Below, piece by piece: positions 4,262 through 36,280 of a stretch of DNA of 39,582 bases. The notes below the pieces were generated by a model that was not told the DNA's origin, did no database searches, and saw only the letters and a list, made by a program, of their open reading frames with translations. Every line of letters starts with the position of its first letter. Within the stretch, counting starts at the first letter, position 1. The stretch lies in contig JAAZVU010000003.1 of the NCBI GenBank assembly GCA_018623275.1, forward strand, positions 1 through 39,582, in the 5' to 3' direction. Source of the DNA: Flavobacteriales bacterium. Lineage in GTDB: Bacteria; Bacteroidota; Bacteroidia; Flavobacteriales; Schleiferiaceae. Position numbers and translations under genes: made by a program.

Positions 4262-4288
4262 ACCCCGTCTCACTTTAAAATATTAGGT

Positions 4289-4317
4289 CCCCTTACCGCG
4301 AGGTAAGGGGATTTTTT
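4289..4317 (+). terminator. Rho-independent terminator after coxA
   Basis: CCCCTTACC-GCGA-GGTAAGGGG followed by ATTTTTT; perfect 9-bp stem. Confidence 0.9.
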
Positions 4318-12735: not shown

Positions 12736-15700
12736 ATGCTAAGTAATTGGAAGAAATATTTAAGTAGAACGATTTTCGCTCTGCTGTTTATTCCAGTATT
12801 GAGCTACGGACAGAATAGCTCTGACTCTACCGGAACCGGTAGTGTGGATATTTCTTTGCCTGAACCTTCGAACTACGCCAAAGAAATCATTTACGACCCG
12901 ACTTCAGGTAACTACTTGGTGTACAGAAAAATTGGTGACATCCGCCTGCCCATTCCTGAGGTTTGGACGGTAGATCAGTACCGCCAATACATGTACGATC
13001 GAGCAGAGGAAGATTACATGGCTGATAAAGCCTCTATGTACAATCCTACCGGGGATAATCCTAGAGATAGTGAAGGACTGGTGCCACAGATTCAAACGGG
13101 AAACGAGGCGCTCGGAAAAGTATTTGGCAGCGATTTAGTTGAAATTCGCCCTCAGGGTATGGCGGAAATCAGGTTCGGGGGCCGCTACCAGTATGTTGAG
13201 AATCCTGGAATTCCTGTACGTAACCAAAAGACCTTTGCTTTTGATTTTGGTCAACGCATCCAGATGAACGTAAAGGGTAAGATTGGCGACCGCTTGGAGC
13301 TCGGTGTGAACTACGATACCGAGGCATCATTTGCGTTTGACAATCAAATGAAGCTGGATTTTGAGGGCGAAGAAGACGACATTATTAAGCGTCTTGAGAT
13401 GGGTAATATCAATATGCCGCTCAATAGCTCCTTGATTACGGGCGCCCAAAGCCTTTTTGGTTTAAAGGGCCAATTCCAATTTGGAAATACCACCGTTACC
13501 ACGGTCTTCTCAGAACAACGCTCACAAAGCCAAAGCATCAATGTACAGGGTGGGGGGACCACCACTGAGTTCTACATCCAAGGCGACCAATATGAGGCGA
13601 ATCGCCATTACTTCTTGGCGCAATTTTTCCGCGAGCATTACGAGGAATATTTAGAGAACATGCCGCTGGTTACTTCGCCCGTCCAGATTACTAAGGTGGA
13701 GGTATGGGTGACCAACGAACGAAGCTCGACTCAGAATTTGCGCAACATCGTTGCTTTTATGGATTTAGGTTCGGACGATAAGTATGCCTACCGTAACTCC
13801 AATGCGAATTTGCCAGGGGTGAGCATCTTCCCGGGTTCGAACGTCAATATCGAAGGATATCCAAACAACGCCAACAACCAATTGGACCCGCTTACTCTAG
13901 AAGCCAACATTCCTGGAGTCCGAGATATAGCCACGGCAAATCAAGATTTGAGTACTTCAGGTTTTGCCGAAGCGAGAGAATATGTTGAGCTCGCCAATGC
14001 TCGGAAATTGGACCAAAACCAATACAAATTTCACCCGCAGCTCGGTTATATCACCTTGAATCAAGCCTTGAATCAAGATGAGGTACTTGCAGTAGCTTTC
14101 CAATATACTGCTGGAGGTCGTACCTACCAGGTTGGGGAATTTTCAAACGATGGTGTTACTCCGCCAAAGACCTTAATCCTCAAACTTCTGAAGAGTACAG
14201 TGCTTGATGTACGCATGCCAACTTGGGATTTGATGATGAAAAACATCTATGCCTTGAATGCCTTCCAGTTGGACCGTGAAGACTTCTACATGGACGTGTT
14301 GTACATGAATGATGAGACGGGAGTTCCTATTCCGTTCCTTCCGGATGGAAATTTGAGCGACACATTGCTCGTCGGTGTAATGGAGTTGGACCGATTGAAC
14401 AACAACAATGACCCATTCCCAGATGGGATTTTTGACTTTGTCCCTGGGGTGACCATCGACCAGCAGCGCGGCCGAATCATTTTTCCGGTCATTGAGCCAT
14501 TTGGTTCGAACCTCGAAGAAAAATTGGACACCGAACAGGCAAGAAATAAGTACGTCTACAACGCGCTATACGACAGTACCCGTTTCAGAGCTCAAGAGCA
14601 AACTCAAAAGAACAAATTCATTCTCCGCGGCCAGTACAAGAGCGCCTCGGGGTCAGAAATTTCCCTCGGTGCCTTTAACATCCCACGAGGCTCGGTTACA
14701 GTGACAGCTGGCGGTCGAACTTTGACCGAAAATCAGGACTACACGGTAGATTATTCTTTGGGCCGGGTGCGCATCATCAACGAAGGGGTAATGAATTCCG
14801 GTTCTCCGATTAAGGTGAACTTTGAAAACAACACCTTATTTAATGTTCAGACCAAGACGTTCTACGGAACGAATATCGACCACAAAGTCAACGACCATTT
14901 GAATGTGGGCGGGACTTGGTTGCATTTGACCGAACGTCCACTGACCCAAAAGGTAAACATCGGTGACGAACCTATTTCGAATACGATATGGGGGATGAAC
15001 ACCAACTACAGCAACGAGGCACCGTATTTGACGCGATTGATGGATGCACTGCCGTTCATCGAAACTAAGGAGAAGAGTAACCTCCAATTCCGCGGTGAAT
15101 TCGCCCACCTCATTCCGGGATCGCCTCGCGGTATTCGAATCACTGGGTCCGAGACGACCTATTTGGACGACTTTGAGAGTTCACAGACGACCATTGATTT
15201 ACGCAGTTTGAATGCTTGGAACCTTGCTTCGACCCCGGGTAATCAAGACGATTTGTTCCCCGAAAGTTCTTTGAATAACGATTTGGCTTACGGGTACAAC
15301 AGGGCAAAATTGGCATGGTACATCATTGATCCATCCTTATACACAGGAGGTAGTGCTGTTCCTGAAAATATTCGCAACGATCCTGAAATCACTTCTGATC
15401 AACGCATGCGTGAGGTCTTGGTTAAGGAGGTCTTCCCGAACTACTCTTTAGCTCAAAACGAAGCGCGCAATTTGGCGATGTTCGACCTCGCGTACTATCC
15501 AAATGAACCGGGCCCGTACAATTTTGATGTAGAAGGTGAGCCTGGCATTAGTGCGGGTTTAAGTGCAGATGGGGAGCTTGTGGACCCTTCGTCGCGTTGG
15601 GCGGGTATTATGCGTCCGTTGCAGATCAACAACTTTGAGGAGCAGAATATTGAGTTCATTCAGTTCTGGGTGATGGACCCGTTCTATGAAAACGATAACG

Positions 15701-18700
15701 CTCCGGACGGTGGAGATTTGTATTTCAACCTTGGTAGCGTTAGTGAAGACATTTTGAAAGACGGCCGACAAAGTTTTGAAAACGGCATTCCTGCCAACGG
15801 TGATAAAAGCCAAATGGACAGCACGCGCTGGGGCTACCTCAGTGAGATTCAACCCATCACAGAATTCTTTGATAATGCGGCAGGTGCGCGCGAAGTACAA
15901 GATGTCGGATTTGATGCTTTATTGGATAGCGAAGAGCGCACTTGGGCGCCGAGCGGTTCCTCGAGCTATTTGAACAGAATTATCAATGCCTACGGTACGG
16001 GGTCGGTGGCTTATCAAAGCGCTTACCCAGATCCATCCCGCGACAACTTCCATTTTTACCGCAGCGATAGTTTGGATGCTGAGAGTGCCGATATCATGGA
16101 GCGCTACAAGGCTTTTAATGGTACCCAAGGAAACAGTGCTACGGTAACAGTCAATGGTGCTCCTGCCTCTGCGACTAACGTTCCAGATAAGGAGGATGCT
16201 AACCGCGATCAGACGTTGAGTAAAACGGAGAGCTACTTCCAATACCGCGTCTCTATGCGTCCTGAGGATTTGGTCGTTGGTCAGAACTACATCACGGATA
16301 TTTACGAAACCAATAGTCATGATCTTCCGAACGGTATGTCTCGACCAACTCGCTGGATACAGTTCAAGATTCCAGTTTTTGAACCAGAGAAGAAGGTAGG
16401 TGGTATCACGGATTTCCGTTCCATCCGATTCTTAAGAATGTTCCTTCGTGAATTCGACGACCCTATTGTTATGCGTTTTGCGCGTTTTGAATTGGTTCGT
16501 GGAGAATGGAGGCGATTCCCATTCTCATTAGACGATGTGCGTGATAACGTGCCTATCGATGAGGACGATGAAACTTCATTTAACGTCAATGCAGTAAACC
16601 TCGAGGAAAACGGCGGACGTACACCTATTCCTTATGTCTTGCCTCCAGATATTGAGCGTCAATTGGTTTATGGAGGAACGCAGATCATTCAGCAGAATGA
16701 GCAGAGTATGTCCCTTGAAATTTGTGGGATTGAAGACGGCGATGCTCGTGCAGTATTCCGCAACTTCAACTTTGACATGCGTATGTACAAACGTCTGCGC
16801 ATGTTTGTGCACGCAGAAGCAGCGGGTGAATTCGAAGATTTGAACGATGGCGATTTGAGCATTTTTGTTCGTTTAGGTTCCGATTACAATGGCAACTATT
16901 ACGAATACGAGGTCCCGCTGAAAGTCACACCTTGGGGTGAATTATTACCTGAGGATATATGGCCGACTGATAACAATATAGATGTCGTCTTTGAAGATTT
17001 GAAAACCTTGAAGCTGACAAGGAATGCAGCGATGGAAAGTGACCCAACGCTCAGTTTGGTCAACAAATACACGGTTACAACACCTGAGGGACACAAGCTG
17101 TCTGTTGTAGGTGCGCCGAACCTAGGGAACATTCGAACCTTGCTTATTGGTATACGTAATCCGAAAAAACGCTCAGCGACCGATGGCGACGACGGCCAGG
17201 CGAAGTGTGCGGAAATTTGGGTCAACGAATTGCGCTTGAGCGATTTTGACAACAGAGGAGGTTGGGCCGCTACGGCAACAGCGAGTGCGAAGCTTGCTGA
17301 TGTTGCAAACGTAAACCTGACGGGTACGATGAGTACTATTGGATTTGGTTCTATTGATCAAACGGTAAACGAGAGAAACAAGTTTGCGGAGCGCTCCTAC
17401 GGTGTGCAAACCAATGTAAATCTTGACAAATTCTTGCCGCAAGAGGCGGGCATTAAATTCCCGATGTTCTTTAGTTTCAACGAGAGCTTCAAGAATCCTC
17501 AATTCAATCCTTTGGATCCTGATATCGACTTCAAGGAATCCTTAGCAGCTGTTGATACCCAAGAGGAGCGAGACAGTCTTAGGTTTGCAGGACAAGAGTA
17601 CCAGATGCGCAAGAGCATCAACTTTACCAACGTTCGCAAGGAGAAAGGTTCTGGTGGCGGTGGCCGTCCTGCTGGGCCTAAAGCAGCTCCCAAAGGCGGA
17701 AGTAAGGGAGGCGGAGTAACCACCAAAGGCATCAATTGGGCCAACTCACCATTTGCCATTAGCAACTTCAATACTTCTTATGCCTTCACGGAAAGTGACC
17801 GTAGAAACATCAATATTGTCCAGGATCACCGAGTGATGCATACGGCGTCGTTGAACTACAATTACCAAACGCGTCCTAAGAACATTGCACCGTTCAAGAA
17901 TAAGATTAAGAACAAGCAATTGGCGCTCATTAGAGATTTCAATTTCTACTATCTACCATCGAAGGTGAGCATGCGTACGGAGCTTAGACGTCAACTAGCG
18001 ACGATGCAAATGCGCAACACTTTCGATCCGGCTATTTCATTGCCTGTTACCTACAATAAAGCCCTCACTTCGAAGCGCATGTACGATGTGGCGTACGATT
18101 TGTCTAAGGGCTTGAAATTGGATTACAATGCAACTGCTCAGAGTAGGGTAGATGAGCTTCCAGGTGATCCAAAGACGCAGGCGAACAGAGATACAATTAT
18201 TGCGGGTTTATCGAGCCTAGGTCGACCAACACAATTCCACCAGACGCTAAATGTGAATTGGCAGATACCAATTAATAAGTTCCCATTCATGGATTGGACC
18301 TCGGCAAGTGTTCGTTACTCCGGGAATTACGATTGGCAAACAAATTCCACGGCTGCTTTGAATCCTCAGGCAAAACCTGAACTTTACTTTGGTAACAGGG
18401 CGCAGAACTCCAACAATATTCAGCTCACGGCCAATGCAAACTTTATCAACTTCTACAATCAGATACCTTTCTTACGTAAGGCAAATCAAGGCGGTAGACC
18501 ACAACCAGTAGCTCGTCGTGGTGCGCCACAACGTCGCGGAGCGCCGAAGAAAGAGGGTAAGGAAGAGGAAGAAAAGGAAAAGAAGGATAGCAAGATTCTG
18601 TTGGGTGCAGCACGCGTTGCCATGATGGTTCGCTCGGTATCTTTGACCTACTCTCAGACCAACGGTACTTTGCTTCCCGGGCTCATTACCAACCCAACGT

Positions 18701-20034
18701 ACTTTGGTTTGGATCCAAGTGCGCTGATGTCCCCAGGGCTAGATTTTGTGTTCGGTCGCCAGAGCGATATTAAGGCGCTTGCCGCTGCTAATGGTTGGTT
18801 GACTCAGAATACCAAGCAGCCGAATCAATTCCAAAAGACCTTTACTGAGAATTTGAATTTCCGTGCGACAGTTGAGCCTTGGCAAGATTTGAGATTGCAG
18901 ATCACAGCTACCAAAGTGGCTGGTTTGAACAGTTCATCCATCTTTAGGTACCACGATCCACTGATCGATACTACCCTAGGTTTACCGGCAGGGTTCTACA
19001 ATTTTAATCCAATGGATAACGGGAATTATTCCATTAGTTTCTTGTCCATAGGTAGTGCTTTTGAGCCAATTGATTCATCCAATTCTCCGGTTTACAATCT
19101 CTTCCTAGCAAACAGAAATATTATCTCGCAACGCTTAAGGGACAACAAGGCTTCTAACGATCCTACCTACATCGGTAATTTCATCACGGCCGCGGACGAT
19201 AGTACCGGTACTCGAGAAGGGTACGACGGGTACAGCTACAACAGTGCTGAGGTGTTAGTGCCAGCGTTTTTAGCGGCCTATGGCGGCATGGACCCGAACG
19301 AAGTGGTGTTGAATGGACGACCGAATTTGCCAATGCCGAATTGGAACCTAAACTTCAACGGACTGATGAAAATTCCATGGTTCAAGAAGAATTTCCAATC
19401 ATTTACATTGACGCATACTTACAAGAGTTTGTACACGATGAATTCGTACCAGAGCAACATGCTTCTGCAGCAGCGTATTCAGAACGGGGAACCGGCAAAT
19501 AATATTCGAAATACCAACGGTGATTTCTTGCCAATTGAGCAAATTTCACAAGTGAGCATTGCTGAGAACTTTGGACCTTTCGTTGGTCTGAACATGCGTA
19601 TGAAGAATCAAGCGAGTTTACGCTTAGATATCAAGCGCAACCGTCAAATGAATCTATCTCTGGTGAACAATCAATTGAGTGATACCAGAGGAATGGAAGT
19701 AGTAATCGGTACCGGATACATCATAAAGGATGTAAGCTTTAACATCGTGAGCGATGGCCGTCCACAGAAGATAACTTCGAATTTGGATTTGAAATTGGAC
19801 TTTAGTTTGCGCGACAACCAAACCGTAATTCGTCGCATACAAGAAGGTGTGGATCAAGTTACCGCGGGACAACGCATCTGGTCGTTGAAGGCAAGTGCAG
19901 ATTATATGCTGTCTTCAAAATTGACCGCTCGACTCTATTACGATCAAACGGTAAGTAAGTTTAAGACCTCTAATGCGTTCCCAACCTTGAATACAAATGC
20001 TGGTATTGCGTTTAGATTTAATCTTGCACAATAG
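12736..20034 (+). CDS. sprA: Cell-surface/T9SS translocon protein SprA
   Basis: 2432 aa with signal peptide; repeated SprA-type segments (VEIRPQGMAEIRFGGRYQ...KIGDRLELGVNYDTEASF); ruvA-sprA-gcvH gene order. Confidence 0.95.
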   Translation: MLSNWKKYLSRTIFALLFIPVLSYGQNSSDSTGTGSVDISLPEPSNYAKEIIYDPTSGNYLVYRKIGDIRLPIPEVWTVDQYRQYMYDRAEEDYMADKASMYNPTGDNPRDSEGLVPQIQTGNEALGKVFGSDLVEIRPQGMAEIRFGGRYQYVENPGIPVRNQKTFAFDFGQRIQMNVKGKIGDRLELGVNYDTEASFAFDNQMKLDFEGEEDDIIKRLEMGNINMPLNSSLITGAQSLFGLKGQFQFGNTTVTTVFSEQRSQSQSINVQGGGTTTEFYIQGDQYEANRHYFLAQFFREHYEEYLENMPLVTSPVQITKVEVWVTNERSSTQNLRNIVAFMDLGSDDKYAYRNSNANLPGVSIFPGSNVNIEGYPNNANNQLDPLTLEANIPGVRDIATANQDLSTSGFAEAREYVELANARKLDQNQYKFHPQLGYITLNQALNQDEVLAVAFQYTAGGRTYQVGEFSNDGVTPPKTLILKLLKSTVLDVRMPTWDLMMKNIYALNAFQLDREDFYMDVLYMNDETGVPIPFLPDGNLSDTLLVGVMELDRLNNNNDPFPDGIFDFVPGVTIDQQRGRIIFPVIEPFGSNLEEKLDTEQARNKYVYNALYDSTRFRAQEQTQKNKFILRGQYKSASGSEISLGAFNIPRGSVTVTAGGRTLTENQDYTVDYSLGRVRIINEGVMNSGSPIKVNFENNTLFNVQTKTFYGTNIDHKVNDHLNVGGTWLHLTERPLTQKVNIGDEPISNTIWGMNTNYSNEAPYLTRLMDALPFIETKEKSNLQFRGEFAHLIPGSPRGIRITGSETTYLDDFESSQTTIDLRSLNAWNLASTPGNQDDLFPESSLNNDLAYGYNRAKLAWYIIDPSLYTGGSAVPENIRNDPEITSDQRMREVLVKEVFPNYSLAQNEARNLAMFDLAYYPNEPGPYNFDVEGEPGISAGLSADGELVDPSSRWAGIMRPLQINNFEEQNIEFIQFWVMDPFYENDNAPDGGDLYFNLGSVSEDILKDGRQSFENGIPANGDKSQMDSTRWGYLSEIQPITEFFDNAAGAREVQDVGFDALLDSEERTWAPSGSSSYLNRIINAYGTGSVAYQSAYPDPSRDNFHFYRSDSLDAESADIMERYKAFNGTQGNSATVTVNGAPASATNVPDKEDANRDQTLSKTESYFQYRVSMRPEDLVVGQNYITDIYETNSHDLPNGMSRPTRWIQFKIPVFEPEKKVGGITDFRSIRFLRMFLREFDDPIVMRFARFELVRGEWRRFPFSLDDVRDNVPIDEDDETSFNVNAVNLEENGGRTPIPYVLPPDIERQLVYGGTQIIQQNEQSMSLEICGIEDGDARAVFRNFNFDMRMYKRLRMFVHAEAAGEFEDLNDGDLSIFVRLGSDYNGNYYEYEVPLKVTPWGELLPEDIWPTDNNIDVVFEDLKTLKLTRNAAMESDPTLSLVNKYTVTTPEGHKLSVVGAPNLGNIRTLLIGIRNPKKRSATDGDDGQAKCAEIWVNELRLSDFDNRGGWAATATASAKLADVANVNLTGTMSTIGFGSIDQTVNERNKFAERSYGVQTNVNLDKFLPQEAGIKFPMFFSFNESFKNPQFNPLDPDIDFKESLAAVDTQEERDSLRFAGQEYQMRKSINFTNVRKEKGSGGGGRPAGPKAAPKGGSKGGGVTTKGINWANSPFAISNFNTSYAFTESDRRNINIVQDHRVMHTASLNYNYQTRPKNIAPFKNKIKNKQLALIRDFNFYYLPSKVSMRTELRRQLATMQMRNTFDPAISLPVTYNKALTSKRMYDVAYDLSKGLKLDYNATAQSRVDELPGDPKTQANRDTIIAGLSSLGRPTQFHQTLNVNWQIPINKFPFMDWTSASVRYSGNYDWQTNSTAALNPQAKPELYFGNRAQNSNNIQLTANANFINFYNQIPFLRKANQGGRPQPVARRGAPQRRGAPKKEGKEEEEKEKKDSKILLGAARVAMMVRSVSLTYSQTNGTLLPGLITNPTYFGLDPSALMSPGLDFVFGRQSDIKALAAANGWLTQNTKQPNQFQKTFTENLNFRATVEPWQDLRLQITATKVAGLNSSSIFRYHDPLIDTTLGLPAGFYNFNPMDNGNYSISFLSIGSAFEPIDSSNSPVYNLFLANRNIISQRLRDNKASNDPTYIGNFITAADDSTGTREGYDGYSYNSAEVLVPAFLAAYGGMDPNEVVLNGRPNLPMPNWNLNFNGLMKIPWFKKNFQSFTLTHTYKSLYTMNSYQSNMLLQQRIQNGEPANNIRNTNGDFLPIEQISQVSIAENFGPFVGLNMRMKNQASLRLDIKRNRQMNLSLVNNQLSDTRGMEVVIGTGYIIKDVSFNIVSDGRPQKITSNLDLKLDFSLRDNQTVIRRIQEGVDQVTAGQRIWSLKASADYMLSSKLTARLYYDQTVSKFKTSNAFPTLNTNAGIAFRFNLAQ

Positions 20035-22778: not shown

Positions 22779-22802
22779 TTCGGTAATTGATATTTCAAAA
22801 AA

Positions 22803-22826
22803 GCCCGGGCCTTGGTCCGGGCTTTT
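22803..22826 (+). terminator. Rho-independent terminator after tonB
   Basis: GCCCGGGCC..GGTCCGGGC then TTTT. Confidence 0.85.
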
Positions 22827-22855
22827 CTATTTTTACGCCTTCAAACAATAACTCT

Positions 22856-23656
22856 ATGACCAACCAAGAAAAAGATAAACTGGTACTCATCGCTGCTCAA
22901 GCTGCGCTTAACGGTGGAGTGGAAATTCTAGAAGTATATAATAACGAGGAAACCGAGGTTGAGGTGAAAGGAGACGATAGTCCACTGACTCAAGCTGATA
23001 CTCGTGCGCACATGGCCATCATGAAGTTGCTCGAGCCTACAGGTATTCCAGTTTTAAGTGAAGAGGGTAAGCATTTGCCTTTTGAGCAGAGATCTTCATG
23101 GGGACAATTATGGATTGTTGATCCGTTAGACGGTACCAAGGAATTTATCAAGCGCAATGGTGAATTCACCGTGAACATTGCCTTGGTAGAAAATGGTGCG
23201 CCTGTTATGGGGGTCGTATATGTTCCAGTTACAGGCGAGTTATATGTTGGTGTGGGTGCTTATGGTTCGTTGAAATTGACTATTGATGCCAATTCCACTA
23301 TTTCTGGAGATGATTTAGGCAAGGGAGTACAATTGCCAATCAAGGTTGATCGTCCATTTACAGCTGTAGGTTCGCGCAGCCATATGAATGAAGAGACCGA
23401 AGAATTCTTAAAAGGATACAGAGAGGAGCACGGAGAGGTGGCTATACTTTCGAAGGGTTCATCTCTAAAGATGTGCATGGTTGCTGAAGGCTTAGCGGAT
23501 GTATATCCACGTTTCGCACCAACAATGGAATGGGATACCGCAGCTGGGCAAGCGGTAGTTGAAGCGGCTGGTTTTAAGATGGTAGAAAAGGAAAGCAGAG
23601 CTCCTTTGCGTTACAATAAAGAAGACTTATTAAATCCACACTTTATTGTGCTATAA
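22856..23656 (+). CDS. cysQ: 3'(2'),5'-bisphosphate nucleotidase CysQ
   Basis: VDPLDGTKEFIKRNGEFTVNIALVE (inositol monophosphatase-family motif), EWDTAAGQAVVEAAG. ATG at 22856 preferred; the track start at 22787 runs through the terminator. Confidence 0.93.
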   Translation: MTNQEKDKLVLIAAQAALNGGVEILEVYNNEETEVEVKGDDSPLTQADTRAHMAIMKLLEPTGIPVLSEEGKHLPFEQRSSWGQLWIVDPLDGTKEFIKRNGEFTVNIALVENGAPVMGVVYVPVTGELYVGVGAYGSLKLTIDANSTISGDDLGKGVQLPIKVDRPFTAVGSRSHMNEETEEFLKGYREEHGEVAILSKGSSLKMCMVAEGLADVYPRFAPTMEWDTAAGQAVVEAAGFKMVEKESRAPLRYNKEDLLNPHFIVL

Positions 23657-23711: not shown

Positions 23712-24590
23712 GTGTCTGAAGTAAAGAAACCAACACTTTTCAAGGAGATAGTAAGACTGGGAAAGCTCCGTCTTGGCATGTCGGTTGTCTTCAGCTCTGT
23801 CGCCGGATACCTTCTCGGATATCAGGAGTTTTCATGGTTTGATCTTATCATGCTCTCTGCTGGTGGGGTGCTTGTCGTGGCGGCGTCAAATGCATTCAAT
23901 CAGATTTATGAGGTGGAACAAGATTCCCTGATGAATCGCACAAAGAACAGGCCTTTACCGGCTGGTACTCTGACTGTTGCACAAGCCTACACTGCGGCAA
24001 TCTCTGCTTTGTTAATTGGTTTGTTCATGCTGTACAGCATAAATGTCCTATCAGCATTTTTTGGTGGGATAAGTGCATTGCTCTACGCAGCGGTTTACAC
24101 CCCCTTGAAAGCACGTACTTCATTGGCTGTATTCGTAGGAGCCTTTCCTGGTGCCATTCCTTACATGCTCGGTTGGGTCGCTGCAAGAAATGATTTCGAT
24201 ATTGAGACGGGTACTTTATTTGCTCAACAGTTTTTCTGGCAATTTCCTCACTTCTGGGCGATTGCATGGTTCTCATTTGAAGATTACAAGAAAGCAGGAT
24301 ATAATCTTCTGCCATCAGGTGCAAAGGATAGGTCGACTCAGTTGTACATCATTGTTTACACTGTTTGGATGATAGCTGTAGGCATACTTCCAGCCTTTGG
24401 TATTACAGGGGACCTCACTCTGAGTTACATGGGAGCAGCTTTTGTACTCTTGTTAGGACTTTGGGTTTTAGCAAATGGAGTTCGATTGTTGAAAAGTGGA
24501 GATGATAAAGCCGCTAGAAAACTAATGCTCAGTAGTATTGGTTATCTCACAGGAATGCAGATTATATACGTCATTGATAGATTTATCTAG
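23712..24590 (+). CDS. cyoE: Protoheme IX farnesyltransferase (heme O synthase)
   Basis: NAFNQIYEVEQDSLMNRTKNRPLPAG (UbiA-type N-x-x-x-D-x-x-x-D motif), second Asp-rich loop FEDYKKAGYN. Confidence 0.95.
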   Translation: MSEVKKPTLFKEIVRLGKLRLGMSVVFSSVAGYLLGYQEFSWFDLIMLSAGGVLVVAASNAFNQIYEVEQDSLMNRTKNRPLPAGTLTVAQAYTAAISALLIGLFMLYSINVLSAFFGGISALLYAAVYTPLKARTSLAVFVGAFPGAIPYMLGWVAARNDFDIETGTLFAQQFFWQFPHFWAIAWFSFEDYKKAGYNLLPSGAKDRSTQLYIIVYTVWMIAVGILPAFGITGDLTLSYMGAAFVLLLGLWVLANGVRLLKSGDDKAARKLMLSSIGYLTGMQIIYVIDRFI

Positions 24591-24592
24591 GT

Positions 24593-25171
24593 ATGGAAAC
24601 ATTAGCACAACAACGAAGAAAAGCATCAAAACCACTCCTATGGATAGGTATTGGGTCAATTATTATGGCCTTCGCTGGTTTGACATCAGGGTATGTGGTT
24701 AGCCGAACCACATTAGTAGAATCTGGAAATTGGCTGGTATTTGAATTGCCTTCAGCTTTTAACTATAGTACTATAGCAATTATAGGTTCTTCGTTAACGC
24801 TGTGGTTGGGTAAAAAAGCGATTTCAAATGGTGAGGAGGGACGCTTAAGATTGTTCTTATGGTTGACAATTGTCCTTGGTATCATCTTCTCGGTACTTCA
24901 GGTAAGAGGTTGGGGAGAGTTGATTAAAGAGCAAGTTTTCTTTACCGGGCCGGGTTCTAACCCAGCAGGGTCTTGGGTTTACGCCATTTCTCTCTTTCAT
25001 CTCGCTCACCTAGGTGGTGGTATTATTTCACTTCTTTACACTACGGTAAGGGCGTATGGTGGAAAGTATTCTCAGGAAGACCATCACGGTGTTCAGTTGG
25101 CTTCAATCTACTGGCATTTTGTGGACCTTTTGTGGATATATTTATTCATCTTTTTGACTCTTATTCGTTAG
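24593..25171 (+). CDS. Cytochrome c oxidase subunit III family protein (short, 192 aa)
   Basis: SLFHLAHLGGGIISLLY, HHGVQLASIYWHFVDLLWIYLFIFLTL. Confidence 0.9.
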   Translation: METLAQQRRKASKPLLWIGIGSIIMAFAGLTSGYVVSRTTLVESGNWLVFELPSAFNYSTIAIIGSSLTLWLGKKAISNGEEGRLRLFLWLTIVLGIIFSVLQVRGWGELIKEQVFFTGPGSNPAGSWVYAISLFHLAHLGGGIISLLYTTVRAYGGKYSQEDHHGVQLASIYWHFVDLLWIYLFIFLTLIR

Positions 25172-25203: not shown

Positions 25204-26124
25204 ATGTCTTCTAATGCTGATTTAATTCAAGACACAAACCATTGGGGTGGCGGTTCGAGACCATTAGGTGCTCGTTACGGTAAACTCATGATGTGGTTTT
25301 TCTTGTTATCAGATGCATTGACCTTCTCGGGCTTCCTAACCGCCTATGGTTTAATGCGCTTCAAGTATGAAAGCACTTGGCCAATTGCTGAAAACGTTTT
25401 TACTCACTTTCCAGGCTTAGAGGGCGACCAGCCATTGCTCTACGTTGCCTTGATGACGTTTATTCTGATCATGTCTTCAGTGACTATGGTATTGGCAGTA
25501 AATGCCGGTGAAAAAATGAACAGAGGTGCTGTTACTAACTGGATGCTATGGACCATCGTTGGTGGTTTCATCTTCGTAGGTTCTCAGGCATGGGAGTGGT
25601 ACCACTTCATTATCGGTGATAGCGGTGCAGTTGAAACAGCGCGTCAAGAAATCCTGCACGTTTACAACGCAGAAGGTGAGCGTTTGAGCTTCAGCCAGGT
25701 TGTACATGGCATGGAAGAAGGTCACGCGAGTAACCACGGCGAAACATTTACCAAGGCAGAAGTTCTGTCTTCAATGAAAGGCGATGCTTCTCTATACTTG
25801 AAAGAACCAGGCAAAGCTGGACGTGCTTTTACGCATGCAGAAAGCGTTGCTTTCTTGGAAGCAGGGGATGTCGTTCAAGGAGCGAACATGATCCACAACG
25901 AATACGGAAGAAAACAGTTTGCAAACTTCTTCTTCTTCATTACTGGTTTCCACGGATTCCACGTATTTTCAGGTGTAGTGATCAACTTCGTTATCTTCTA
26001 CAATGTTCTTCTTGGAACTTATGAAAGACGCGGACATTACCGCATGGTTGAAAAGGTTGGTTTGTACTGGCACTTTGTAGACCTTGTTTGGGTATTCGTA
26101 TTTACATTCTTCTACCTCGTATAA
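25204..26124 (+). CDS. Cytochrome c oxidase subunit III (long form with hydrophilic insertion)
   Basis: FFFFITGFHGFHVFSGVVINFVIF, RRGHYRMVEKVGLYWHFVDLVWVFVFTFFYLV. Confidence 0.92.
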   Translation: MSSNADLIQDTNHWGGGSRPLGARYGKLMMWFFLLSDALTFSGFLTAYGLMRFKYESTWPIAENVFTHFPGLEGDQPLLYVALMTFILIMSSVTMVLAVNAGEKMNRGAVTNWMLWTIVGGFIFVGSQAWEWYHFIIGDSGAVETARQEILHVYNAEGERLSFSQVVHGMEEGHASNHGETFTKAEVLSSMKGDASLYLKEPGKAGRAFTHAESVAFLEAGDVVQGANMIHNEYGRKQFANFFFFITGFHGFHVFSGVVINFVIFYNVLLGTYERRGHYRMVEKVGLYWHFVDLVWVFVFTFFYLV

Positions 26125-26134
26125 AAAAGAAATC

Positions 26135-26443
26135 ATGGCAGAACACAATGGAACATGGTGGATTTGGAAAGTATTCTGGATCCTATTAGTGATCACCGGA
26201 GTCGAGGTGGTTCTCGGTATTATTAAGCCTGAGTTTTTGTTAACTCAAGTAATTGGAACGTCAATTTTGAATATTGTATTCATCCTATTGACGCTTGTTA
26301 AGGCAGCATATATCGTGCAAATTTTCATGCACGTTAAGTATGAGAAGAAAGCGATGAAGTATGCTTTGTACCTTCCTAGTTTGATTCTTATTCCTTATTT
26401 GACTTTTATCTTATTGACAGAAGGTTCATACCTCTTTAGTTAA
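26135..26443 (+). CDS. Cytochrome c oxidase subunit IV-like protein (prokaryotic COX4 type)
   Basis: About 100-aa three-TM protein after subunit III; VKAAYIVQIFMHVKYEKKAMKYALYLPSLILIPYL. ATG at 26135 (MAEHNGTWW) preferred over the track's 26084. Confidence 0.85.
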   Translation: MAEHNGTWWIWKVFWILLVITGVEVVLGIIKPEFLLTQVIGTSILNIVFILLTLVKAAYIVQIFMHVKYEKKAMKYALYLPSLILIPYLTFILLTEGSYLFS

Positions 26444-27156
26444 TGAAAGCAATAACAGTATTTCAACGGGTAGCACTAATAGCAGTATTAGTGCTACCCG
26501 CTTTAGTTTACATCATCTTTGTTTACGGACAGAATGAGGTGTTTTTTCAAACCTTGGATTATGTAGGTGAGAAGACCTATGATGAAGCCTTAGGGGATAC
26601 TGTTTACTACGAAATCCCTGAATTCAATCTCGTTAGCGCTCAAGGCGAAGAAATCAATAAAGAGGTAATGGATTCTACCATCTATGTGGTGAGCTTCTTC
26701 TTTGCGACTTGTCCGACAATATGTCCGGCGATGAATTTCCATCTCAATGATATCGAGAGCAGATTCAAGGGGTATCCAGATTTTAAGCTATTGAGTATTA
26801 CCGTAGACCCAGAGAAGGATTCAGTAGAGGCGCTAGCAGTTTATCAAAAGGAGCGCAATTACAGAGAGGGTAAATGGATTTTTACCACAGGTGATAAAAC
26901 ACACATCTACTCCTTGGCAAAGAGCCTATTTTTGAATGCTTTCGAGGATCAAACGGCTGAAGGAGGCTTCTTACACAGTACCAATGCCATAATTGTGGAT
27001 TGGAACGGACATATTAGAAGTAGAAAAGACGATTTAGGAAACATTGTGGGCTCTTACGACGTTTTAGATGTAACACAATTGAACGACCTAGAATCGGACA
27101 TTAAAGTATTAATTGCGGAATACGAACGCGACAAACACAATCTGTTAGATGACTGA
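26443..27156 (+). CDS. SCO1/SenC-family copper chaperone
   Basis: FFFATCPTICPAMNFHLNDI CxxxC motif, LLSITVDPEKDS, distal His in GGFLHSTNAIIVDWNG. Confidence 0.93.
   Translation: MKAITVFQRVALIAVLVLPALVYIIFVYGQNEVFFQTLDYVGEKTYDEALGDTVYYEIPEFNLVSAQGEEINKEVMDSTIYVVSFFFATCPTICPAMNFHLNDIESRFKGYPDFKLLSITVDPEKDSVEALAVYQKERNYREGKWIFTTGDKTHIYSLAKSLFLNAFEDQTAEGGFLHSTNAIIVDWNGHIRSRKDDLGNIVGSYDVLDVTQLNDLESDIKVLIAEYERDKHNLLDD
26467..26500. repeat. Perfect 15-bp inverted repeat with 4-nt loop inside SCO1
   Basis: CGGGTAGCACTAATA-GCAG-TATTAGTGCTACCCG. Confidence 0.97.
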
Positions 27157-27697
27157 TATTGCAGAGGACAAGAAAGTCCTAAATTTTATATACATCGTTA
27201 GTGCGGTTATTCCTGTGGCAGTAGGTCTATTAATGATCATGCCGTCAGAGTGGAAGGTGAATTTGGGGATGACTGAGAATGCCTCTGTAAGCAGTCTGCC
27301 ACTGATCCATGCAGTGCTCAACGGTTTGACATTTGTTTTCCTTTTATTGGCTTTGTTTGCGATTAAGAATAAGAAAATCGCTATTCACAGGACCTTCATG
27401 ATTACTGCATTGGTGTTGTCTTCAATTTTCTTGATCTCCTATGTGATTTATCATACCACTCACCCAAGTGCGAAATTCTTAGGCGAGGGTAGCGTTCGAT
27501 ATGTGTACTTTTTTATTCTTATTTCTCATATCATCCTTAGTATTCCAGTCATTCCTTTGGCATTACTCAGTATTTGGAGAGGATGGACAAACGATATTGA
27601 AAAGCACAAAAGGATTACAAAATTCTCTTTCCCAATCTGGCTATATGTGAGCCTTACAGGGGTGTTGGTGTATATCTTCATGCAGCCTTACTACTAA
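27149..27697 (+). CDS. DUF420 domain membrane protein
   Basis: LPLIHAVLNGLTFVFLLLALFAIKNKKIAIHRTFMITALVLSSIFLISYVIYH, four to five TMs, downstream of SCO. Confidence 0.88.
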   Translation: MTDIAEDKKVLNFIYIVSAVIPVAVGLLMIMPSEWKVNLGMTENASVSSLPLIHAVLNGLTFVFLLLALFAIKNKKIAIHRTFMITALVLSSIFLISYVIYHTTHPSAKFLGEGSVRYVYFFILISHIILSIPVIPLALLSIWRGWTNDIEKHKRITKFSFPIWLYVSLTGVLVYIFMQPYY

Positions 27698-36215: not shown

Positions 36216-36231
36216 AGGAAGAATAAGACAC

Positions 36232-36262
36232 AAAAAAACCAGCCCGCAGGGCTGGTTTTTTT
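36232..36262. terminator. Bidirectional intrinsic terminator between convergent genes
   Basis: AAAAAAA-CCAGCCC-GCA-GGGCTGG-TTTTTTT. Confidence 0.93.
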
Positions 36263-36280
36263 ATGCTTGAAAACTACGAT

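Follow-up and report, generated by a model that had tools for sequence, protein, structure and literature searches.

A conserved hairpin within the opening codons of SCO1 in cytochrome oxidase operons of Flavobacteriales

Position of the hairpin in the oxidase operon

The window (the whole 39,582-nucleotide stretch of Flavobacteriales DNA analysed here) contains a cytochrome oxidase operon in which the first codons of SCO1 also form a long perfect inverted repeat. Do these codons carry a message besides the peptide, is it read in DNA or in RNA, and what might it do? The preliminary description reported a perfect 15-bp inverted repeat with a 4-nt loop, starting 24 nt past the SCO1 ATG in a gene pair that overlaps by TAATG. 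Sequence, coordinates, arm length and loop proved exact (CGGGTAGCACTAATA-GCAG-TATTAGTGCTACCCG, 26467-26500), as did the distance, counted from the A of the ATG at 26443, and the overlap, in which the COX4 stop (TAA, 26441-26443) shares one base with the start codon (26443-26445). The stem is held by SCO1 codons 9-20, encoding RVALIAVLVLP plus the first base of A20. Among the perfect hairpins of the 39.6-kb window it is the longest, and its pattern occurs once in the assembly (74.8% complete, 182 contigs). In the family alignment the G-C-rich stem base, GGG/CCC, is near-invariant, and the loop widens in effect to 6 nt wherever a species has the top A-U pair unpaired. Rfam covariance models gave no match at E<=1 in 26000-27200, and a literature search on SCO1/oxidase hairpins in Bacteroidetes found nothing relevant.

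Table 1. Features of the oxidase gene run and of the SCO1 hairpin (window coordinates)
Feature	Position	Strand	Remarks
UbiA-family prenyltransferase	23712..24590	+	Pfam PF01040; upstream; probably heme O synthase ctaB, assigned from context
Second COX3-family subunit	24593..25171	+	Pfam PF00510; upstream
COX3-family subunit	25204..26124	+	Pfam PF00510; upstream, same gene run
COX4, prokaryotic cytochrome oxidase subunit IV, 102 aa	26135..26443	+	Pfam PF03626; stop overlaps SCO1 start
SCO1/SenC copper chaperone, 237 aa	26443..27156	+	Pfam PF02630, E=2.9e-20; hairpin host
5' arm, CGGGTAGCACTAATA	26467..26481	+	SCO1 codons 9-13; pairs conserved with covariation
Loop, GCAG, 4 nt	26482..26485	+	Loop sequence not conserved
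3' arm, TATTAGTGCTACCCG	26486..26500	+	SCO1 codon 15 second base to codon 20 first base; covarying
U-rich tail, CTTTAGTTTACA	26501..26512	+	After stem; terminator-like; synonymous sites partly constrained in relatives
DUF420 membrane protein	27149..27697	+	Pfam PF04238; downstream of SCO1

The gene order COX3, COX3, COX4, SCO1 and usually DUF420 was found in nearly all of the 80 named relatives with contigs reaching far enough. The nearest of these are marine Cryomorphaceae/Schleiferiaceae metagenome assemblies, with 99% identity to JAAXJR010000033.1; the relatives sampled were mostly MAGs. Individual loci vary around the junction: L142 has about 220 extra bases between COX4 and SCO1 and still keeps the hairpin, and L172 has a second hairpin (-75 to -33) ahead of SCO1. 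Elsewhere in the window, strong intergenic hairpins followed by T-runs at 36229-36265 and 4288-4311 look like ordinary intrinsic terminators, and an open reading frame of 2432 aa occupies 12736-20034.

Chance, covariation and wobble asymmetry

The preliminary description considered a chance origin of such a stem very improbable (order 10^-3 or less under a uniform model). Our estimate, an expectation of 2e-4 with loops of 3-8, agrees. When the peptide was recoded synonymously 20,000 times at local codon frequencies, no recoding gave more than 12 Watson-Crick pairs, compared to the 15 observed. The folding-energy control that had been proposed pointed the same way, with 5,000 recodings averaging -5.1 and reaching -17.0 kcal/mol at best, compared to -24.5 kcal/mol for the native sequence; these codon-usage nulls were built from short loci. 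With its flanks the hairpin folds at -25.6 kcal/mol (z = -7.4). Because the uniform-model expectation is so low and the recodings fall short, the stem is neither a product of chance nor a by-product of the peptide.

Codon choice over the stem is restricted. Within the genus, codon diversity is 0.36 in the hairpin codons compared to 0.74 elsewhere. This conservation of wobble positions over the structure, found together with the covariation described below, is a property of ORF-embedded 3' protective hairpins as well. The third position of codon 9 is G in 49 of 50 carriers, the codon being CGG, AGG, AAG, GGG or TGG as the residue varies, while usage predicts a G-ending codon there at a frequency of 0.10-0.47 in all carrier genera save the tryptophan-bearing g6.

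An alignment of SCO1 5' ends from relatives, which the preliminary description had proposed as a check, revealed abundant compensatory change both in the same genus and in the family. The stem is kept in the 23 same-genus sequences long enough to test while the DNA varies, the sole weakened example (L012) retaining 12/15 pairs. Differences within the genus are wobble pairs, changes on both sides of a pair, or changes in the loop-adjacent pair. The clearest compensation accompanies the replacement of RVALI by RAVLI, where GTA-GCA in the 5' arm becomes GCA-GTR while in the 3' arm CTA becomes CTG and GTG often becomes GTA. Since second codon positions pair with third positions on the opposite arm, Watson-Crick or wobble pairing survives these amino-acid changes.

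Of 18 further genera sampled in the family, about 12 have a stem in the equivalent position, with both the bases and the encoded residues changed (L041 has AAAAGGGTAGTACTGATAAGTTTATTGGTACTACCCTTTT, for instance, and L064 GGGCAGTGCTGGTACTACTACTAGCACTGCCC). The isolate Phaeocystidibacter luteus carries a 14-bp stem. Covariation was scored on 43 distinct family sequences, in which 92.7% of cells pair and 9 of the 15 pairs have changed on both sides. Both-side-changed cells numbered 82, compared to 33 in shuffles, and the covariation score was 0.473, compared to 0.301 for shuffled and at most 0.184 for slid controls; the shuffles ignore relatedness and the slid controls retain it.

The kinds of mismatch that are tolerated bear on whether DNA or RNA is the selected object. 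The raw count of G-U versus A-C is biased by the genetic code, and a conditional test of second against third positions was used, with carrier sets (here and for the tail below) that were selected on pairing. Among carriers, a second-position C lies opposite a third-position G 67 times and opposite A once, while a second-position T lies opposite A 203 times and opposite G 61 times (Fisher p 6e-6 over all rows; 0.001 with each genus, pair and state counted once). As G-U is tolerated and A-C is not, the selected object is the sense-strand RNA and not a DNA operator; a DNA palindrome or templated repair is disfavoured because either would treat both mismatches alike.

This asymmetry weighs on two readings that need no RNA structure. 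The preliminary description had allowed for a DNA operator, a palindrome bound by a dimeric regulator, and the dyad is indeed perfect in the window genome. Its mismatches, however, are strand-specific and RNA-like rather than strand-independent, its sequence drifts widely among genera and it occurs only once in an assembly that is 74.8% complete, and we consider an operator very improbable. Template switching could keep the repeat perfect without selection, quasi-palindrome correction being known to perfect imperfect inverted repeats. Such correction would erase G-U and A-C alike, yet G-U persists and A-C does not; it also leaves aside the conserved position of the hairpin across families and the constraint on the third position of codon 9 and on the tail. 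A mutational by-product was accordingly rejected, with the same very small likelihood as the operator. The pattern of substitutions instead makes it almost certain that the hairpin is a sense-RNA structure under selection.

Distribution within and beyond the family

On the SCO1 protein tree the hairpin requires 5 changes, compared to 25 when the trait is shuffled. Two loci scored as lacking it reflect a cut contig (L145) and a weakened stem (L138), and one gain within the family followed by a few losses can therefore reasonably be proposed. The principal loss concerns a small-genome clade that includes BACL7- and TMED14-type assemblies. Within about 9 kb surrounding SCO1, examined at 48 loci, the SCO1 hairpin was the only strong intragenic hairpin to recur; the second recurrent hairpin lies between genes, some 3.6 kb upstream of SCO1, and is a terminator. 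The recurrent terminators in relatives have a counterpart in the window at 22799-22826, a terminator-like hairpin (AAAAGCCCGGGCC/GGTCCGGGCTTTT) that falls inside a TTG-started ORF (22787-23656), and the start of this inositol monophosphatase gene therefore probably lies further downstream.

A covariance model made from the hairpin (R1) was used to search other families. R1 also matches ordinary intergenic terminators in several families, and matches outside SCO genes were therefore not counted as the SCO1 element. In SCO-type genes it found the hairpin in two genera of family f13 and in one genus of family f15 (g55), more weakly in f8; two genera of f48, a family from a different order of the class, have the hairpin too. 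The gene that immediately follows COX4 in f13 and g55 has lost CxxxC and keeps the anchor and the hairpin, while an SCO gene lies further downstream (CxxxC-less SCO homologues after COX4 in L109-L112 of g55 and in L117 and L118 of f13). The hairpin thus outlives the thiol/copper motif of its host. No Pfam match was obtained for the CxxxC-less hosts tested, L109 and L118; such a gene is possibly an SCO-derived oxidase-associated protein without the copper motif. In another genus of f15 (g44), a Cys-less SCO-like gene between COX4 and the SCO gene (L234:255-956) has no strong hairpin at its start and offers a natural case to compare for loss of the element.

Most of the remaining Bacteroidia sampled yielded no such hairpin, which makes it a lineage trait that was either lost or gained several times. 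In relatives such as genus g17, and in the majority of other Bacteroidia, the operon is retained and the hairpin is absent, and the element is therefore not indispensable. SCO1 genes elsewhere have hairpins of their own: L288 (f25) has another perfect 11-bp hairpin, AAGGTGAGCAAAATTTTGCTCACCTT, at a different position (about +91 to +116), and some flavobacterial SCO1 genes (L236-L241, L248; family f3) have a weaker one at about +40, at the VFGI..PK codons (for example TTTTTGGAATTTTAGTTATTCCAAAAA in L238), which is possibly due to chance.

Possible roles of the hairpin and its tail

The stem is usually followed by a U-rich tail. The tract reads CCCTTTTT in many genera and CTTTAGTTTA or CTTTGCTTTA in the window genus; several genera read AAAAGGG...CCCTTTTTAG, by eye indistinguishable from an intrinsic terminator, and a terminator scan flags the SCO1 hairpin. 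Where A-tracts are present upstream of the stem, they pair with the tail. The 12 nt that follow the stem contain more U than synonymous codon choice predicts in 12 of the 13 carrier genera (mean tail score 3.35 compared to a null of 2.22; combined p ~2e-5, taking genera as independent), while non-carrier genera gave p ~0.2 (0.22). The excess resides in the four codons past the stem and is absent from the next three. Since the codons P+3 and P+4 are T-rich in non-carriers as well, the tail is only moderate evidence. Genus g7 has no immediate U-tract, and the tract is weak in the window genus and in other families.

The preliminary description suggested that the hairpin sets structural-subunit versus chaperone stoichiometry. 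This is still the best functional reading, with the U-rich tail supporting its partial-termination form, and we propose it from the sequence evidence. Ribosome pausing and RNA processing, which the preliminary description also named, are further possibilities. The hairpin would be an ORF-embedded 3'-end-forming element just after the COX4 stop, a partial intrinsic terminator and/or a barrier to 3'-5' exonucleases that forms or guards the 3' end of the upstream cox mRNA. A ctaB-COX3-COX3-COX4 message would then outnumber a SCO1-DUF420 message, and the DUF420 gene is expected to share the reduced output of SCO1. Because COX4 and SCO1 nearly abut in carriers, such an element has to lie inside SCO1, where hydrophobic-anchor codons with free third positions could accommodate it. 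Termination and an exonuclease barrier predict the same 3' end and could be told apart by decay rates and by whether the tail is required.

We give a 3'-end-forming or stoichiometric function about an even chance. Against it, ribosomes passing through SCO1 would unfold the stem, the U-tract is missing in g7 and weak in the window genus, and operons exist without the hairpin. The stem might instead act on translation, since it lies 15-31 nt after the ATG in carriers (mostly 18-27), near the expected edge of an initiating ribosome, and the COX4 stop overlaps the ATG; placed just past the footprint of a ribosome starting or restarting there, it could tune initiation, coupling or early elongation. 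That distance, however, largely reflects how short the N-terminal tail ahead of the membrane anchor is, the overlap is found only in some carriers (the gap reaches about 40 nt in others) and a U-rich tail would not be expected, and we regard translational control as unlikely. The conservation of a long, near-perfect stem in copper-dependent oxidase operons would also suit a site where a trans-acting factor binds or cleaves the cox mRNA, either an RNase III-type double-strand nuclease or a copper- or oxygen-responsive RNA-binding protein. We find this less likely still, as the loop sequence is not conserved, the stem sequence follows the codons except for GG/CC near the base, and no factor was identified. 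A stimulator of -1 frameshifting was rejected: no slippery heptamer is conserved at the required 5-9 nt ahead of the stem.

A 3'-end-forming element of this kind would have counterparts in known systems. In E. coli operons that decay differentially with a stabilised upstream gene, a hairpin ends the stable part in most; it lies within the downstream ORF in 17 of 26 cases, where wobble positions are more conserved, and these hairpins lie at a mean distance of 107 +/- 56 nt inside the ORF, with no U-tract behind them (Dar and Sorek 2018, PMC5927463). The SCO1 element resembles them in being embedded in codons of a downstream ORF (which in E. coli follows the more stable segment) with conserved wobble positions. 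Unlike them, it lies 15-31 nt into the ORF, usually has a U-rich tail, is conserved across families with amino-acid covariation and has outlasted the degeneration of its host gene. In ABC transporter operons of cellulolytic Clostridia, gene ratios are set by long-stemmed internal terminators whose U-tracts are weak (Wu et al. 2022, PMC9045158). With these the element shares a long stem, a U-tract that is weaker than canonical and pairs with upstream A's, and a place between genes needed in unequal amounts, but those terminators are intergenic while it lies wholly within codons. It is also like the segmental-stability hairpins of malE-malF and puf (discussed in PMC5927463) in lying, within one operon, where genes with abundant products give way to genes with scarce ones. 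The E. coli and clostridial classes have been described experimentally, and malE-malF, whose structure is intergenic, and puf are experimentally established in Proteobacteria; the Flavobacteriales element is coding, and differential decay or termination at it is a prediction. If the proposed function holds, it would work like the Dar-Sorek and/or Wu systems, an analogy that makes no claim to class membership.

Taken together, these results make a strong case for a codon-embedded RNA structure kept across families through changes that alter the protein, one that a comparison of peptides alone would miss. The SCO1 mRNA carries a second, structural message, which probably sets the amount of chaperone relative to the upstream respiratory subunits and yields a testable proposal for the balance that marine Flavobacteriales strike between oxidase subunits and their copper chaperone. 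A bolder and unlikely proposal is that the hairpin acts in cis as a regulated element in the assembly of cytochrome oxidase, under such constraint that it helps dictate the anchor residues and outlives the SCO function of its host, and that it switches from termination to read-through and back as oxidase demand changes (through copper, oxygen or SCO1 translation itself).

Similar elements may be worth seeking at other near-abutting gene junctions in these streamlined genomes. One lead to ORF-embedded elements elsewhere is an R1 match (E=2e-5) in L250, from another family, at about 580-690 on the minus strand, to a hairpin lying within the first transmembrane codons of another small membrane protein (MKTIQKALLTLLLAVPFLLLLLPGN...).
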